DNA from: Deltaproteobacteria bacterium
GTDB lineage: Bacteria; Desulfobacterota; Dissulfuribacteria; Dissulfuribacterales; UBA3076
Direction: 5' to 3'
Length of the DNA: 41,537 bases
NCBI GenBank assembly: GCA_018399745.1
Contig: JAGYNZ010000025.1
Coordinates: forward strand, 1 to 41,537
Positions 35,047 to 41,537 of this stretch are shown here, piece by piece. The position numbers and the translations under genes are program-made. A model generated the notes under the pieces. The model saw only the letters and a program-made list of their open reading frames with translations. It made no database searches and was not told the DNA's origin. The stretch's first letter is position 1. Each line of letters begins with the position of its first letter.

Positions 35047-38000
35047 TCATTCAACTGCAAACGTTTTTCTTAAAAATCTGTCCAGCACATCCCCTTTTGT
35101 CTCGCCTTCCTGCTCGGGTTGCAGGTTGAACTTGTTCAGCCGCAAAAAGCGGCAGCCGTAGCTTTCCAGCTCTATCTGCCGGCTGATATCATAATCAAGG
35201 TACTCCTGAGAAAAATTATGTTTTGTCACGATATCAGGATTTTTTGTGTGATATTCCACACCGTCATATTCCAGGATCAGGGTCTGCTCTTTACCGCCTT
35301 TTGAAAATGTCATGAGAAAATCAACCCGGTATTTTGGTATCTGTCTGGCGTATTCGGCCCTGATGTATTCTCCGATCTTGAACTGGGGAATTATTTTGAC
35401 ATGCTCTCGGTGAGTTTTCACAAAGTTAGTGCTGATCAGAAGGTTATATAGGTCTTTTTCTGCTGGTGATTCAAAGATATTCGGGTCTTCAATAAAAAAA
35501 TCATTCTTTCTGTTTTCATTAAGGACCTTATCATAATGCCTTATGGCATCGCCAAGCCGGGTTTTGTTGTATTCATTAACCGGCATGCTGTGGACAAAAA
35601 CCATCGTGTCCTTGGCGCGGCTGAACCCAACATTGAGCCGCTGCATCTTTAAGCTCCTGATATTATCCGCCGTGCCGTCAATTACCGGATAAATGTTACT
35701 TAAATAGGCGTTGCCGTATTTGTTGTCTTCTACAAAGGAGTAATATACGAGATCACGTTCTTCACCCTGCACATCCCCTACAAACCAAACGGCCAGATCA
35801 TGGTTCTTTTTCAGTTCGGTTATATTGAGTTTTTCGCTCAATGCCTGCTCCATTCTTGCCTGCTGTTCACGGAAAGAGGTGATAATGCCCACACTTCCCT
35901 TAAAGCCGTTTTTAATCCTTGATTTCAAATCATGGATAATGGCATCGATTTCATCAAGGTTCACATTACTGCCTGAATTGCCTCTGGTTTCCACTGGGAT
36001 AAACTGCAAGACCTCTCCAATCGGTTTGGTGCGGATGCGGTTGACATTGAGATCCAGTTGAGCAGGCTTATAGAAAAACTCATTTGAATAATCAATGATT
36101 TCAGGAAAACTCCGGTAATGCTCACGGAGGGAAGTTGTGTAATTTGCAATGGCCTTGGCAAAACTTAAGGTTGACGTCCGGATGTTGAAGGTTTTGAGCC
36201 ATAGGATCGTGCCCGAGTTATCCTGTAAGGGCCCCAATACCTGTTCAACTTCCTGCTCATCTTCTTTTATCTCTTTGGAAACTTCCTGAATCAGTTCATT
36301 TTTCGCCTGATCTGTTGTCGATACATTGTAATCCTCCTGATATGAATTAATTATATTCCTGAAATAAGCGTCTGAATATTTTGAGTTCACGTTAATTGCG
36401 CCAACCGCGCCGTACTGGTATTCGTCGCCAAAAACAACGACCTGCTTTGCCCGCAGAATAAGGGAGATTGACTCGGCTATTGAGACCTGTGACGCCTCAT
36501 CAATCACAAGAACATCAATCAGGTCCTGGTCCATGGGGAAGTGCCTGGATATCATGTCCGGTTCGGCAATAATAGCGGCTACGTTTTCCAGAAACACCCG
36601 GGCCTGTTTGCCCGTCAGCCTGGTTCCCCCGTTAAAAGAGACCTTGATTCTGGCAACATCTGCCAGGAAATTGTTGAGGTTCTTCAACCTGAGGTCGTTC
36701 TGATACTCAACCTGTTTCTGCCTGAGCATATAAAAGGCACCGAGATCTTCTCTGTTTAATGTATCAAGGGTCGATGTTTTAGAAAGCGTATAGTGCAGTT
36801 GGATCCATTTCCAGATATCAGCCTCAGTATAAGTAAGATTACTGAGTCGGGACAAAGTACTCAGATCTCCGCTTGAAATTCTGAGTTTGGCAAGGATTGA
36901 TCCATATTTTTGGAATAGCGCATCGACAGAGCTGCAAAGTTCTGCATCCACCTTTTGAAGAGCATCTCTTAATCCGTTAAGAGTATTGTAGACCTCGGAA
37001 ATACTCTTTTCTTTGTCTCCGCTGACTTCACGGTATTCACTGATGATATCCCTGTGCTTCTTCAAATAAATGGCGGTTCGAAGCTTGGGGATTCCCTCAG
37101 ACATCATATCCAAGGTGAGTTCGTTTGGCGGAATATTTGATAAACGCGCGACTTCTTCAATAATCCGGGCGTGTTCAAGGCTTCTCAAAGATCTGATCAA
37201 CTGTTCCTGTTCTTTTTTGTCAGGTGATTTCCCTATCAGCCTTTTGAAGAATGCGCCGGGTATATCGCCGGCATGGAGAAAGGAAATAGCCACATCTTTT
37301 TTGAACGATTTTGCGACTTTTTCAAGTAGATTGACAAAAGACTCGGGAATTTCAGTCAGGCTTGTCTCAAAGTCAAAATCCTCCCCGGAATGAAGATTGA
37401 TTTCCTCGCAGGCATTAAGAAACTTCGGAACATCTTTCCGTCGTTTTAAAAGAAAACGAAAAGCGGGTTGACTGATATCCTTGAAACTATCTATGTTTTC
37501 ATCTTCTGCAAAATCCTGTATCTTTTTAAAATCAATTATGGCCGATTCGTCGACTTTGGGAAGTGCAAGATCATGTTCTGAAAACTCGCCGGAACCAACA
37601 AGACTATTTTGTGTCTGCTCAAATTCAAACAGACTATAAATAGTTTCCCGGTATTTATCGGATGAAGAAAGCTGTCTCTCAATTTTCCCGATAACATCCC
37701 TTCTTGACGCCTTTTCGTCTTTTTCGGCAGCCTGTTCGTTATAGTTATTGGCGCGGTCACCCGCGGCGTTTATAACCGCATTTTGAAGGGAATTCTCAAG
37801 GCTGTTTATTGATTTACCGTTTTTGGACAATCTGATAATCGATGGTTTCGCCCTGGGGTGAAGGTTGCGAAACTTGGCTGTAAGTATCCTGTCGATCACA
37901 TCAATGGCCTGCTTTTTATGGGATGTTATAACAACGGATTTTCTTCCCTGGTTGGCCCAATAGGTAATGGCTGCAATCGTGTGAGATTTACCTGTTCCGG

Positions 38001-39402
38001 GCGGACCATCAACAACAATTATTTTGTTTTTGGAATTATCAAGGGCAAGCAGAATCCTCTTTTGGGAAATATTCAGATTTAATGGATTATCGGAAATGTA
38101 TCTGCTGGAGCTCTTGATAGGATATCTCTTTTTGAATTCCTTATCCACTGTATCCTGGGTATTTTCAACGTTTCCGTCAACATAATCTGATATAAAATCA
38201 ACGAATTTGCTCTTGCCCCCTGATTCAAGGTGCGTCATAATTTCGGAATAATCCAGCAGCTTCTTGTTCTCGTTTTGGACAACCTGAAATCCAACGCGAC
38301 ATTTAATGTCAGGATAAATTTCTTTTGGCGCCTTGATTGGTCTGAAATGCGGTTCAAGCACAAAAGACTCATTCCAGCCATACTGAGATTGTAAAAAGAC
38401 CTCTATTCCACTGAGGTTAGAACCAGCATTTTTAAGTATTGAAGATCTTGAGGTGGTCAGAACTGAAGGGAATTTGAAATAATTTACCGCCGGTGTATTG
38501 ATCAGTAAAAGATCCCTGGAAAATGAAACCGTAACTTCTTCGTTGCCCGGGACCAGAGTAACCTCTATAAAATATATGGGGTACCCTTCAATAGTGTTGT
38601 CATCAGTTTGCCTGTTCAGTTCGTGAAAGAACAGATAGGTTGTTCCGACAGTGTTGTATCTCGAGTATTTCTGAATACTGGTGAACAAGTCATATAAGAC
38701 TATGTCTTCAATGATTTCCTTGAAATACTTTTTGACACTGTCAAAATATTTTTCCTCGGTTCGATTATCGCGCGCAATAACCTGAAGTGCATCAAAGTGT
38801 TTTTTCAGGTAATTGGCAGAGTTGAAAGTTGAATGAGGAACGTGATCAATTCCCAGGTCCTGTTTCAGGCGATCGATCTTCTTTTCTTGTAATTCTAAAA
38901 GAATAAGCTCAATCTGCTTTCTAAGGGCAAGGTTATATTTCCGGCAACCATCAGGGAATGCCTGTTCGTTATATTTCTTGATCTCATTTTTGGAAAGGTC
39001 AGAATCTTTGTCAGGCCTTAGTCCTTTTTCAGTGGCCACGAGTGCCGCAGTATTTCGTTCAGCTCTTTTTGCCCACTCTTGTTCGACGCACGTTTTGAGA
39101 TAATCTAAACAAAACTTGCCGGAAAGGGCCTTGTCAATCTCCAATAGAACCTCATCTCCGGACAGCGCAAGAATGTGCTCATTAGCTTTTACGATAAGAG
39201 GCGTTTTATCTCCGGCCTTTATTCTTTGTAAAAGAGTATATTGGAAGTCCTGGAATATTGCTAAATCGAGCGTCAGCTCATTGTTTGTCCATCGATAATT
39301 TATAAGTGTCCTGAAATTGAACTTTGTCTCGGTAAATGCAGCAAAATAATTGAGTATGCTGGTGGAGAGTTTGCTTGCGCTTTTTCTGTTCTTTGCTGTC
39401 AT
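35047..39402 (-). CDS. SF1 helicase fused to Vsr/DUF559-like nuclease
   Basis: A 1451-residue protein likely to serve in anti-phage defence. The first 440 residues are a domain I do not recognise. Then comes an SF1B (AAA_11/AAA_12, Upf1-like) helicase: Walker A GPPGTGKS (466-473), a long coiled helical insertion, Walker B VIDEASQVSIAES, the Q-like GDEYQYGAV, and the C-terminal half with SFREQQARMEQAL, DVQGEERDLVYYS and motif VI LNVGFSRAKDTMVF. The last 130 residues form a PD-(D/E)xK nuclease of the Vsr/DUF559 kind: YRVDFLMTF, LILEYDGVEYHT, and FLRLNKFNL. Helicase plus Vsr-type nuclease in one chain recalls the Hhe-type system and related giant defence helicases, but I see no DUF4011. It stands as a single gene with its own 5' spacer. 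Confidence 0.82.
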   Translation of the reverse strand: MTAKNRKSASKLSTSILNYFAAFTETKFNFRTLINYRWTNNELTLDLAIFQDFQYTLLQRIKAGDKTPLIVKANEHILALSGDEVLLEIDKALSGKFCLDYLKTCVEQEWAKRAERNTAALVATEKGLRPDKDSDLSKNEIKKYNEQAFPDGCRKYNLALRKQIELILLELQEKKIDRLKQDLGIDHVPHSTFNSANYLKKHFDALQVIARDNRTEEKYFDSVKKYFKEIIEDIVLYDLFTSIQKYSRYNTVGTTYLFFHELNRQTDDNTIEGYPIYFIEVTLVPGNEEVTVSFSRDLLLINTPAVNYFKFPSVLTTSRSSILKNAGSNLSGIEVFLQSQYGWNESFVLEPHFRPIKAPKEIYPDIKCRVGFQVVQNENKKLLDYSEIMTHLESGGKSKFVDFISDYVDGNVENTQDTVDKEFKKRYPIKSSSRYISDNPLNLNISQKRILLALDNSKNKIIVVDGPPGTGKSHTIAAITYWANQGRKSVVITSHKKQAIDVIDRILTAKFRNLHPRAKPSIIRLSKNGKSINSLENSLQNAVINAAGDRANNYNEQAAEKDEKASRRDVIGKIERQLSSSDKYRETIYSLFEFEQTQNSLVGSGEFSEHDLALPKVDESAIIDFKKIQDFAEDENIDSFKDISQPAFRFLLKRRKDVPKFLNACEEINLHSGEDFDFETSLTEIPESFVNLLEKVAKSFKKDVAISFLHAGDIPGAFFKRLIGKSPDKKEQEQLIRSLRSLEHARIIEEVARLSNIPPNELTLDMMSEGIPKLRTAIYLKKHRDIISEYREVSGDKEKSISEVYNTLNGLRDALQKVDAELCSSVDALFQKYGSILAKLRISSGDLSTLSRLSNLTYTEADIWKWIQLHYTLSKTSTLDTLNREDLGAFYMLRQKQVEYQNDLRLKNLNNFLADVARIKVSFNGGTRLTGKQARVFLENVAAIIAEPDMISRHFPMDQDLIDVLVIDEASQVSIAESISLILRAKQVVVFGDEYQYGAVGAINVNSKYSDAYFRNIINSYQEDYNVSTTDQAKNELIQEVSKEIKEDEQEVEQVLGPLQDNSGTILWLKTFNIRTSTLSFAKAIANYTTSLREHYRSFPEIIDYSNEFFYKPAQLDLNVNRIRTKPIGEVLQFIPVETRGNSGSNVNLDEIDAIIHDLKSRIKNGFKGSVGIITSFREQQARMEQALSEKLNITELKKNHDLAVWFVGDVQGEERDLVYYSFVEDNKYGNAYLSNIYPVIDGTADNIRSLKMQRLNVGFSRAKDTMVFVHSMPVNEYNKTRLGDAIRHYDKVLNENRKNDFFIEDPNIFESPAEKDLYNLLISTNFVKTHREHVKIIPQFKIGEYIRAEYARQIPKYRVDFLMTFSKGGKEQTLILEYDGVEYHTKNPDIVTKHNFSQEYLDYDISRQIELESYGCRFLRLNKFNLQPEQEGETKGDVLDRFLRKTFAVE

Positions 39403-39859: not shown

Positions 39860-40093
39860 ATGAAACAGAATATAACGCTCAGTCTCGATAAAGATTTAAT
39901 TCAAAAGGCAAGGGTTATTTCTGCGAGAAGACACTCCTCGGTCAGCAAGATACTCAGTCAGGAATTGCAGAGAATTCTAGAATCCACTGAAAAGCATGAA
40001 ATTGCCAGAAAGAGGGCGATTTCTGATCTGCGGACCGGATACCGTCTTGGAGGCATAATCACCGCATCGAGAAAAGAACTTCATGAAAGATAG
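39860..40093 (+). CDS. RHH antitoxin (DUF6364/VapB-like)
   Basis: A 77-residue protein starting MKQNITLSLDKDLIQKARVI, the pattern of a ribbon-helix-helix antitoxin of the DUF6364 kind, with the DNA-binding strand NITLSLDK and a following helix; the C-terminal tail (RTGYRLGGIITASRKELHER) is the likely toxin-binding part. AAGGAGT stands at good distance from the ATG. It overlaps by 11 bases the start of a VapC gene, the usual arrangement, but that toxin is destroyed, leaving an orphan antitoxin. Confidence 0.82.
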   Translation: MKQNITLSLDKDLIQKARVISARRHSSVSKILSQELQRILESTEKHEIARKRAISDLRTGYRLGGIITASRKELHER

Positions 40094-40234: not shown

Positions 40235-40489
40235 AAATTTCGGATTTCAGGATCTTCAGGATTTAGCTCGTATCTTTCCTTCCTGTTCTCCTCTTTTAAC
40301 CCTGTGCTTTTAGACCTGCGGGGGCAGTTCATAGTAGACCCATATATTGAATAAACTCGGACAAAAACCGATAAGCTTGTAAGTGGCCCTTCGATGTCTT
40401 ATTTTAACGATAGTGGTCATATCCGGTATTTTTCCAGTAGTCGAAAACCTATCCGGATATACCTTAACATACTGAATAAGGAATAAAAA
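40235..40489. other. Leader region of the small ORF
   Basis: Non-coding stretch before the small TGA-containing ORF. TATCCGG occurs at 40419 and 40450, the latter within the palindrome TATCCGGATA, 30 bases before the start codon; this may be an operator. No gene was recognised. Confidence 0.35.
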
Positions 40490-40654
40490 ATGACAGAAAT
40501 TCTGATTATTATTGCTCTTATAGGTATATGGTACCTGTTGCAGGTCCACATACTGCCCAAACTTGGAATATCCACCTGAATGCGGGAATCCTGTCAGGTG
40601 ACGGGAAAAAAGGACAAAGGCACGCAAACAGAAAGACCGAACGAAGAAGGATGA
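40490..40654 (+). CDS. Candidate small selenoprotein (in-frame TGA)
   Basis: ATG 40490 follows AAGGA at seven bases. The first 29 codons encode a single membrane helix, MTEILIIIALIGIWYLLQV then HILPKLGIST. A TGA (40577-40579) follows, and the same frame goes on with MRESCQVTGKKDKGTQTERP to a stop at 40652-40654, a sensible cytoplasmic tail with a Cys six residues after the TGA-adjacent Thr. Ten bases after the TGA a hairpin with an AGGT loop fits the bacterial SECIS pattern, with the loop 16 bases from the TGA, close to the distance in E. coli fdhF. I infer that TGA may encode selenocysteine, giving a 54-residue protein. The simpler alternatives are a 29-residue membrane peptide or a nonsense mutation. 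Function unknown. Confidence 0.5.
40589..40606 (+). promoter_or_regulatory. SECIS-like hairpin after in-frame TGA
   Basis: TCCTGTC (40589-40595) pairs with GACGGGA (40600-40606), with one U-G pair, around the loop AGGT (40596-40599). A G among the first two loop bases and a loop about 16 bases after UGA are features required by bacterial SelB. The pairing is seen directly; the function is inferred. Confidence 0.4.
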
Positions 40655-40731: not shown

Positions 40732-41537
40732 TCACGTGACACCGAATGTCTTAAGATAGTTTCTGAATTGTCTTTTGCTCAAATTCGAGAACCGATCTAA
40801 TATCGTCATGAATTCCAGACCCGGTACCAATGCCCTGATCACCGGTATATCCAGGTCCTTTCTTGTCAGATCCACATAGATAGGTTTATGGCCGTTCGAT
40901 AACAGCAGTCTCTCCAAGGCATCCAGATCACTATTTACATCCCCTGATGAATAATCAGGGAGGTCCTCGAATTTTATGGTCCTTTGTCCTGCCGGAGGGG
41001 GATTTGATCTGACAAAATAAGGATATGCCAGCTCGGTCAATGCGGATACCGCTGCGGTCTTTCCACTCAGGTCGGCTGCACAGCCCCTTACGAATTCATC
41101 TCCAGTCTGGATAAAGGCCTTATAGCAAGGTATTCCAAGATCAGTAGTCAGATCCAGAAACTGGACATGGCGACCTGTTTCCCGACACCTGTTCAGGAGA
41201 TGGGCTACCGTGGGATCCTCCGCCTTCAGAGTGAAACACCGCTCTGGAGAGTAAAGACCAACTCTCTCGGCATCTCTTTCTATGTATTCCATCAGGCCAT
41301 GCAACCTGGCCTCTTCTTCAGTATTACCGGCAGCAAGGCCGTTTGATGATACCCCGCTGGTCAGAGACACTTCATCGAGGTTACAGAACAAAAATACGAA
41401 CTGGGCGGGCAGATATATCTCGGTATCCTTTTCTGAGCCAGTTTCCCTGCCTGCTATCCAGTACAACACCTGGTCCTCGTAAGGGACTTCAAGATTCATG
41501 GTATTCGGATCCAGTACAGAAAGCCCCTGCCTTACTA
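40732..41537 (-). CDS. YcaO-domain protein, 5' end outside the window
   Basis: The frame is open to the right edge (VRQGLSVLDPNT before MNLEVPYEDQ), so this is the C-terminal part of a larger protein, at least 267 residues seen. YcaO enzymes use ATP to activate amide oxygens in making azoline, thioamide or amidine groups, or help RimO modify ribosomal protein S12. Visible motifs are VSSNGLAAGNTEEEARLHGL followed by MEYIERDAERVGLY, which form the ATP-binding helix with its conserved glutamates and arginine, and SALTELAYPYF. The chain ends soon after LKTFGVT, without the proline-rich PxPxP tail of azoline-forming YcaO proteins, so a TfuA-type or other role is more likely. It converges on the small TGA-containing ORF. 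Confidence 0.85.
   Translation of the reverse strand, partial: VRQGLSVLDPNTMNLEVPYEDQVLYWIAGRETGSEKDTEIYLPAQFVFLFCNLDEVSLTSGVSSNGLAAGNTEEEARLHGLMEYIERDAERVGLYSPERCFTLKAEDPTVAHLLNRCRETGRHVQFLDLTTDLGIPCYKAFIQTGDEFVRGCAADLSGKTAAVSALTELAYPYFVRSNPPPAGQRTIKFEDLPDYSSGDVNSDLDALERLLLSNGHKPIYVDLTRKDLDIPVIRALVPGLEFMTILDRFSNLSKRQFRNYLKTFGVT

Follow-up and report, generated by a model that had tools for sequence, protein, structure and literature searches.

A short gene in the 41,537-nucleotide stretch of DNA analysed here (the window; contig JAGYNZ010000025.1 of a Deltaproteobacteria bacterium) raises the question whether the TGA at its codon 30 ends translation or is read as selenocysteine (Sec, U). All of its features lie on the forward strand. 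A Shine-Dalgarno-like AAGGA (40478-40482), of a kind present in 132 of 135 members of the family described below, stands 7 nt 5′ of the ATG at 40490, and the reading frame 40490-40654, taken through the TGA on the basis of its translation and of the family, encodes 54 amino acids (MTEILIIIALIGIWYLLQVHILPKLGISTUMRESCQVTGKKDKGTQTERPNEEG). Residues 2-24 (40493-40561) form a single transmembrane helix according to an AlphaFold model and to conservation, with the motif W-x-x-[LV]-[QN]-x-x-[IL]-L-P-[KR]; the model consists of this lone helix, with a pLDDT of about 90 over the first 20 residues, and a tail of low confidence. The TGA in question occupies 40577-40579 and is assigned to Sec by family comparison, including Cys homologues. 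It is followed by 24 open codons, among them that of Cys35 (40592-40594), which is 95% conserved at U+5 and is the putative selenenylsulfide partner, and then by the termination codon TGA (40652-40654), beyond which there is no conserved continuation. The gene is single-copy in its genome.

Starting at the tenth base past the TGA is a hairpin, UCCUGUC-AGGU-GACGGGA (40589-40606), assigned as a SECIS element by folding and covariation, with 7-bp arms at 40589-40595 and 40600-40606 and the loop AGGU at 40596-40599, at a distance of 16 nt from the UGA. Its folding energy is -10.0 kcal/mol, a value matched by 2 of 200 dinucleotide shuffles. Taken alone, the hairpin of this gene is therefore modest and only moderately unusual. 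A terminator was considered and rejected because no U-run lies behind it. A preliminary description of the locus, made from sequence alone, had already listed the ribosome site, the membrane helix, the TGA at codon 30, the open continuation with a Cys and a normal stop, as well as the 7-bp stem with its AGGT loop ten bases past the TGA, and all of these observations held.

A bacterial selenoprotein of the SelB/SECIS type requires selA, selB, selC and selD, and the source genome (2.65 Mb, 97.5% complete) meets this criterion. SelB (355 bits), SelA (607 bits) and SelD (384 bits) all exceed their cut-offs, and the tRNA-Sec scores 74.5 bits (gathering threshold 47). The SelD reading frame of this genome itself contains one TGA. 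As selB is nearly universal in the home phylum (353 of 395 genomes), its co-occurrence with the gene within the phylum is uninformative. Four draft genomes (G012, G039, G108, G170) have the gene with its TGA, yet SelB is missing from them at E≤1e-60; genomes congeneric with G039 and G108 do have SelB, and the missing genes are probably assembly gaps.

Homologues were searched in six frames in the 395 genomes of the phylum, using a query with Cys at the Sec position. Matches were found in 207 genomes (E≤1), about half, and all listed matches (E 1e-31 to 0.0026) contain at least one in-frame TGA. An independent and unbiased DNA pattern, allowing TGA, TGC or TGT at this position, was also run on genome contigs; the scan ended at its match limit with at least 117 matches, 116 with TGA versus one with TGT. 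They come chiefly from Desulfobacterales and Syntrophales, the others from Acidobacteriota, Planctomycetota, KSB1 and one contig labelled Margulisbacteria. The consensus is a helix with W/Y and Q/N followed by [IL]-L-P-[KR]-[LMF]-G-[IV]-x-T-U-x4-C. Over 193 sequences, non-redundant at 90% and selected for containing U, the P, G and T residues are conserved to 98-100% and the C at U+5 to 95%; about 50 additional distant members from the six-frame list all have U at the same position. The family thus shows what is expected of a genuine Sec codon, a UGA whose in-frame position is conserved and which is flanked on both sides by conserved coding sequence. A few members (L188, L195, L229) keep Sec but lack the Cys at U+5, therefore the U-C pair is not obligatory. 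A codon-position test of the tail (109/76/130 changes) shows little third-position bias in its last part, which fits a fast-evolving tail and is not counted as evidence.

Across the family the hairpin occurs in two registers. Type 1, defined by CQV(T/A) and including the window gene, has the loop AGGU 16 nt past the UGA, while type 2, defined by C-x-x-E/G-D/S-R, has the loop GGA or GGU about 23 nt past it. In type 1 (n=93) 77% of the cells are paired versus 71% in shuffled alignments, with a covariation of 0.294 versus 0.180 and two-sided changes in 63 versus 25 cells. The corresponding values for type 2 (n=29) are 95% versus 73%, 0.699 versus 0.262, and 51 versus 17 cells; in either type none of 500 shuffles was as high. 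Slid versions of the type 2 structure all scored far lower, and laid on the type 1 sequences as a cross-check it gave no signal. The third base of the Cys codon in type 1 pairs with the first base of the Thr/Ala codon, so that TGT co-occurs with A (Thr) and TGC with G. The stem of type 2 does not include the Cys codon, yet the TG of this codon is invariant, and conservation of this Cys is therefore not a by-product of the RNA structure. For 202 members the mean fold energy is -10.7 versus -7.6 in shuffled sequences, and 188 of them have a G within the first two loop positions. The published bSECIS model asks for such a G in a loop 16-37 nt after the UGA (PMC13188914), and both the family and the window gene meet it. 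Although modest for the window gene alone, the hairpin is not due to chance across the family. A chance reading frame or hairpin was rejected on the strength of this covariation, together with the in-frame TGA of all listed homologues and of 116 of 117 pattern matches.

Studying the Planctomycetota reveals forms with Cys in place of Sec, which were found only in this phylum. Of 294 planctomycete genomes 30 had a match, with four clear Cys members (L255, L256, L258, L264), and of 397 Pirellulales genomes 45 had one, the listed matches comprising 27 with and 19 without TGA. Thirteen of these 19 were fully read, and all thirteen carry Cys. The criterion that some homologues have Cys is met, and the idea that Sec is obligate everywhere has to be rejected, Cys forms being common in Pirellulales. 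A G-loop stem of at least 6 bp in the right range is found in 29 of 38 planctomycete Sec genes versus one of 17 Cys genes (p 9e-7), and selB in none of the three Cys-only genomes tested (G644, G587, G573) versus 21 of 22 Sec-bearing ones (Fisher p 0.0017). One Planctomycetaceae genome (G395) has selB and both Cys and Sec copies; its Cys member (L100/L258) is preceded by an extra similar helix, and the Sec copy is separate. No other evidence for Sec is as strong as this exchange of Sec for Cys with loss of both hairpin and machinery.

With these data two rival explanations can be judged. According to the first, the gene encodes an ordinary 29-residue membrane peptide ending at the TGA, and the frame and hairpin behind it arose by chance or belong to some other RNA element. 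In favour of it, the Shine-Dalgarno motif and the helix precede the TGA, and the window hairpin by itself stands out only moderately. Against it, Cys35 is conserved even where the hairpin is shifted away, Cys homologues and thioredoxin fusions (see below) run through the position, and the stems covary; we regard this rival as practically ruled out. The second holds that suppression inserts an amino acid other than Sec at the TGA. The residue can indeed not be named from sequence alone, but the alternative residue is Cys, a G-loop bSECIS hairpin lies at the right distance, and hairpin and selB are absent where Cys is present, so that next to no room is left for this rival either. We therefore consider it nearly certain that UGA30 is decoded as Sec via a SelB-type hairpin starting 9 nt downstream, a conclusion from comparative sequence without any selenium data. 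The in-frame UGA, the hairpin within the coding region, the Cys homologues and the genomic Sec genes are all shared with bacterial selenoproteins of the SelB/SECIS type. The preliminary description had proposed a possible new small selenoprotein, to be refuted by a lack of Sec genes or by homologues that all stop at the TGA without conservation behind it. Both tests were passed, and the homologues include Cys forms. Its proposal is supported, except that in fact a large family and not a single protein has been found.

Regarding the function, a thioredoxin domain (PF00085, E 1e-28 to 3e-32) follows in frame at the C-terminus of five Pirellulales members, three of them with Sec (L302, L309, which is identical to L149, and L322) and two with Cys (L316, L321). 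None of the five has a stop between the family part and the thioredoxin domain. Because a Met immediately precedes the domain in four of them, separate initiation cannot be excluded. Such fusions are known only in Pirellulales, and the stand-alone family lacks a thioredoxin domain; elsewhere thioredoxin is encoded by an adjacent gene, which lies immediately 5′ of the family gene in Smithella/Syntrophaceae and L168 and is divergently oriented in Desulfobacula-like loci. Thioredoxin-like genes occupy 12 of 550 near versus 2 of 676 far gene slots (p 0.002, uncorrected for relatedness). OsmC-family genes precede the family gene in L053, L068 and L097 (the last assigned by eye), and a thioredoxin-reductase-like gene, also assigned by eye, does so in L178. 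A thioredoxin-linked membrane redox function is thus likely, although inferred from fusions and neighbours without biochemical evidence. That Sec30 and the Cys might form a redox centre had been suggested beforehand and is strengthened by the fusions, while the link to thioredoxin itself had not been foreseen.

Most relatives keep the U-x4-C pair just past the membrane helix. The first four residues have a net charge of about -0.2, and the tail averages 5.6 K/R versus 4.1 D/E, with the K/R after the helix as a further positive charge beside this count. By the positive-inside rule such a distribution places the C-terminus in the cytoplasm. Because of the short uncharged N-terminus and the Lys-rich tail we infer that the C-terminus and Sec are cytoplasmic, in agreement with the fusion to a TrxA-like domain. 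Our best reading, which we consider likely although the mechanism is inferred and lacks biochemical evidence, is a redox module anchored in the membrane, based on a selenenylsulfide (U-x4-C) and served by thioredoxin. The Sec selenolate would attack an oxidised substrate at the membrane surface, possibly a hydroperoxide, a quinone-type oxidant or a disulfide (its identity is unknown), resolution would give a Sec30-Cys35 selenenylsulfide, and thioredoxin would re-reduce it. The thioredoxin would be supplied by the tail fusion in some planctomycetes and by the adjacent trx gene in some other bacteria. The protein would then act as a membrane tether through which a fast selenol is available to the thioredoxin system at the membrane.

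The gene neighbourhoods differ among the members, many of which, including the window gene, are solitary, and a single conserved operon was rejected. In 10-12 Desulfobacterales loci the genes directly upstream, often with gaps of 0-35 nt, encode a small membrane protein and a TAT Fe-S protein that resembles HmcB/HybA at a score below cut-off. MobB is found upstream in 14 loci, and some loci have an FmdB zinc-ribbon, a sigma/FeoA or a YgaP-like membrane-domain neighbour. Because of the Fe-S/membrane-protein, MobB, FmdB and sigma/FeoA contexts a respiratory-complex rival stays open. In this view the protein is a genuine selenoprotein whose main role is that of a small subunit or maturation factor in membrane redox complexes (Fe-S/membrane-subunit pairs, molybdenum-cofactor enzymes). 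Sec would then be a ligand, a persulfide/selenide carrier or an electron relay, and thioredoxin would be incidental. The Fe-S pair, MobB and FmdB speak for it; yet none of these neighbours occurs as a fusion or is common to different lineages, whereas thioredoxin does form fusions and turns up repeatedly in lineages that are unrelated, and we regard this rival as unlikely. Even less likely is that the Sec/Cys pair binds metal or moves selenium or sulfur as a membrane chaperone without redox electron cycling. The FmdB Zn-ribbon and YgaP-like neighbours at some loci and the Lys-rich disordered tail would fit, but the fusion of thioredoxin to Sec and Cys members alike favours thiol/selenol exchange, and the few members without Cys also speak against it.

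Returning to the thioredoxin-served module, a bolder reading is that the family has so far gone unrecognised, ranks among the commonest selenoproteins of sulfate-reducing and syntrophic bacteria, and serves as a membrane-tethered selenol station of the thioredoxin system. We lean towards it, by a narrow margin. The family would then have escaped notice owing to its tiny size and to its almost exclusive use of Sec outside Planctomycetota, and it would be a bacterial counterpart in design of eukaryotic selenoprotein S, which makes a selenenylsulfide within its own chain and has disulfide reductase and peroxidase activity in vitro (PMC10298544). Like selenoproteins S and K it is a membrane protein with Sec borne on a disordered tail; unlike them it has a bacterial SECIS in the coding region and Sec beside the helix, not near the C-terminus. 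No selenoprotein S/K family was among the Pfam matches.

No NCBIfam (June 2026) or Pfam model reached its cut-off in a scan of 50 diverse members. The weak match to the YnaM/YnfT small membrane proteins (NF041477; E 0.09, 13 bits versus a cut-off of 35) covers the helix only and ends before Sec, so that membership is not met. None of the 119 prokaryotic selenoprotein families tabulated in a 2026 review (PMC13188914) combines a U-x4-C motif with a single membrane helix, the closest motif there being the UxxxxU of TsoB, a rhodanese/DsbD-fusion-like protein. A known selenoprotein family was rejected by these three resources. Relative to them the family is probably new, but a prior description is not excluded, since closed-access papers and supplements were outside the search. 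Members are present in about half of the genomes sampled from the phylum, and ORF callers would end them at residue 29. According to its 2025 paper, the tool deep-Sep filters out families without Cys homologues; here such homologues came only from a different phylum. With the thioredoxin fusions a function becomes directly testable, and the paired Sec and Cys members, with and without hairpin and selB, represent a natural experiment on Sec retention.

The window gene itself belongs to the CQVT/AGGU type typical of other orders, with up to 63% identity, and eight members from its own order (L208, L209, L211, L212, L215, L230, L231, L233) have the other hairpin type and less than 42% identity to it. 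It could possibly have been acquired by horizontal transfer. The contig labelled Margulisbacteria (L077) encodes a protein which, like its neighbours (trx, PAS/sensor kinase), resembles those of Desulfobacula; that genome yielded no selB above cut-off, and the contig is likely misbinned or recently transferred. At L127:5350-6902 and similar loci the protein of about 155 aa beside the TAT Fe-S protein is a membrane protein without Pfam or NCBIfam match. Two distinct family members lie in tandem, 225 bp apart and both with TGA and hairpin, in Desulfococcaceae HSG9 (L130:5032-5319). In the window, a DUF6364 protein, antitoxin-like by eye from length and position, is encoded upstream of the selenoprotein gene (39860-40093), a YcaO-domain protein downstream on the opposite strand (40732-41535), and a superfamily 1 helicase-like protein of 1451 aa (AAA_11/AAA_12) at 35047-39402.
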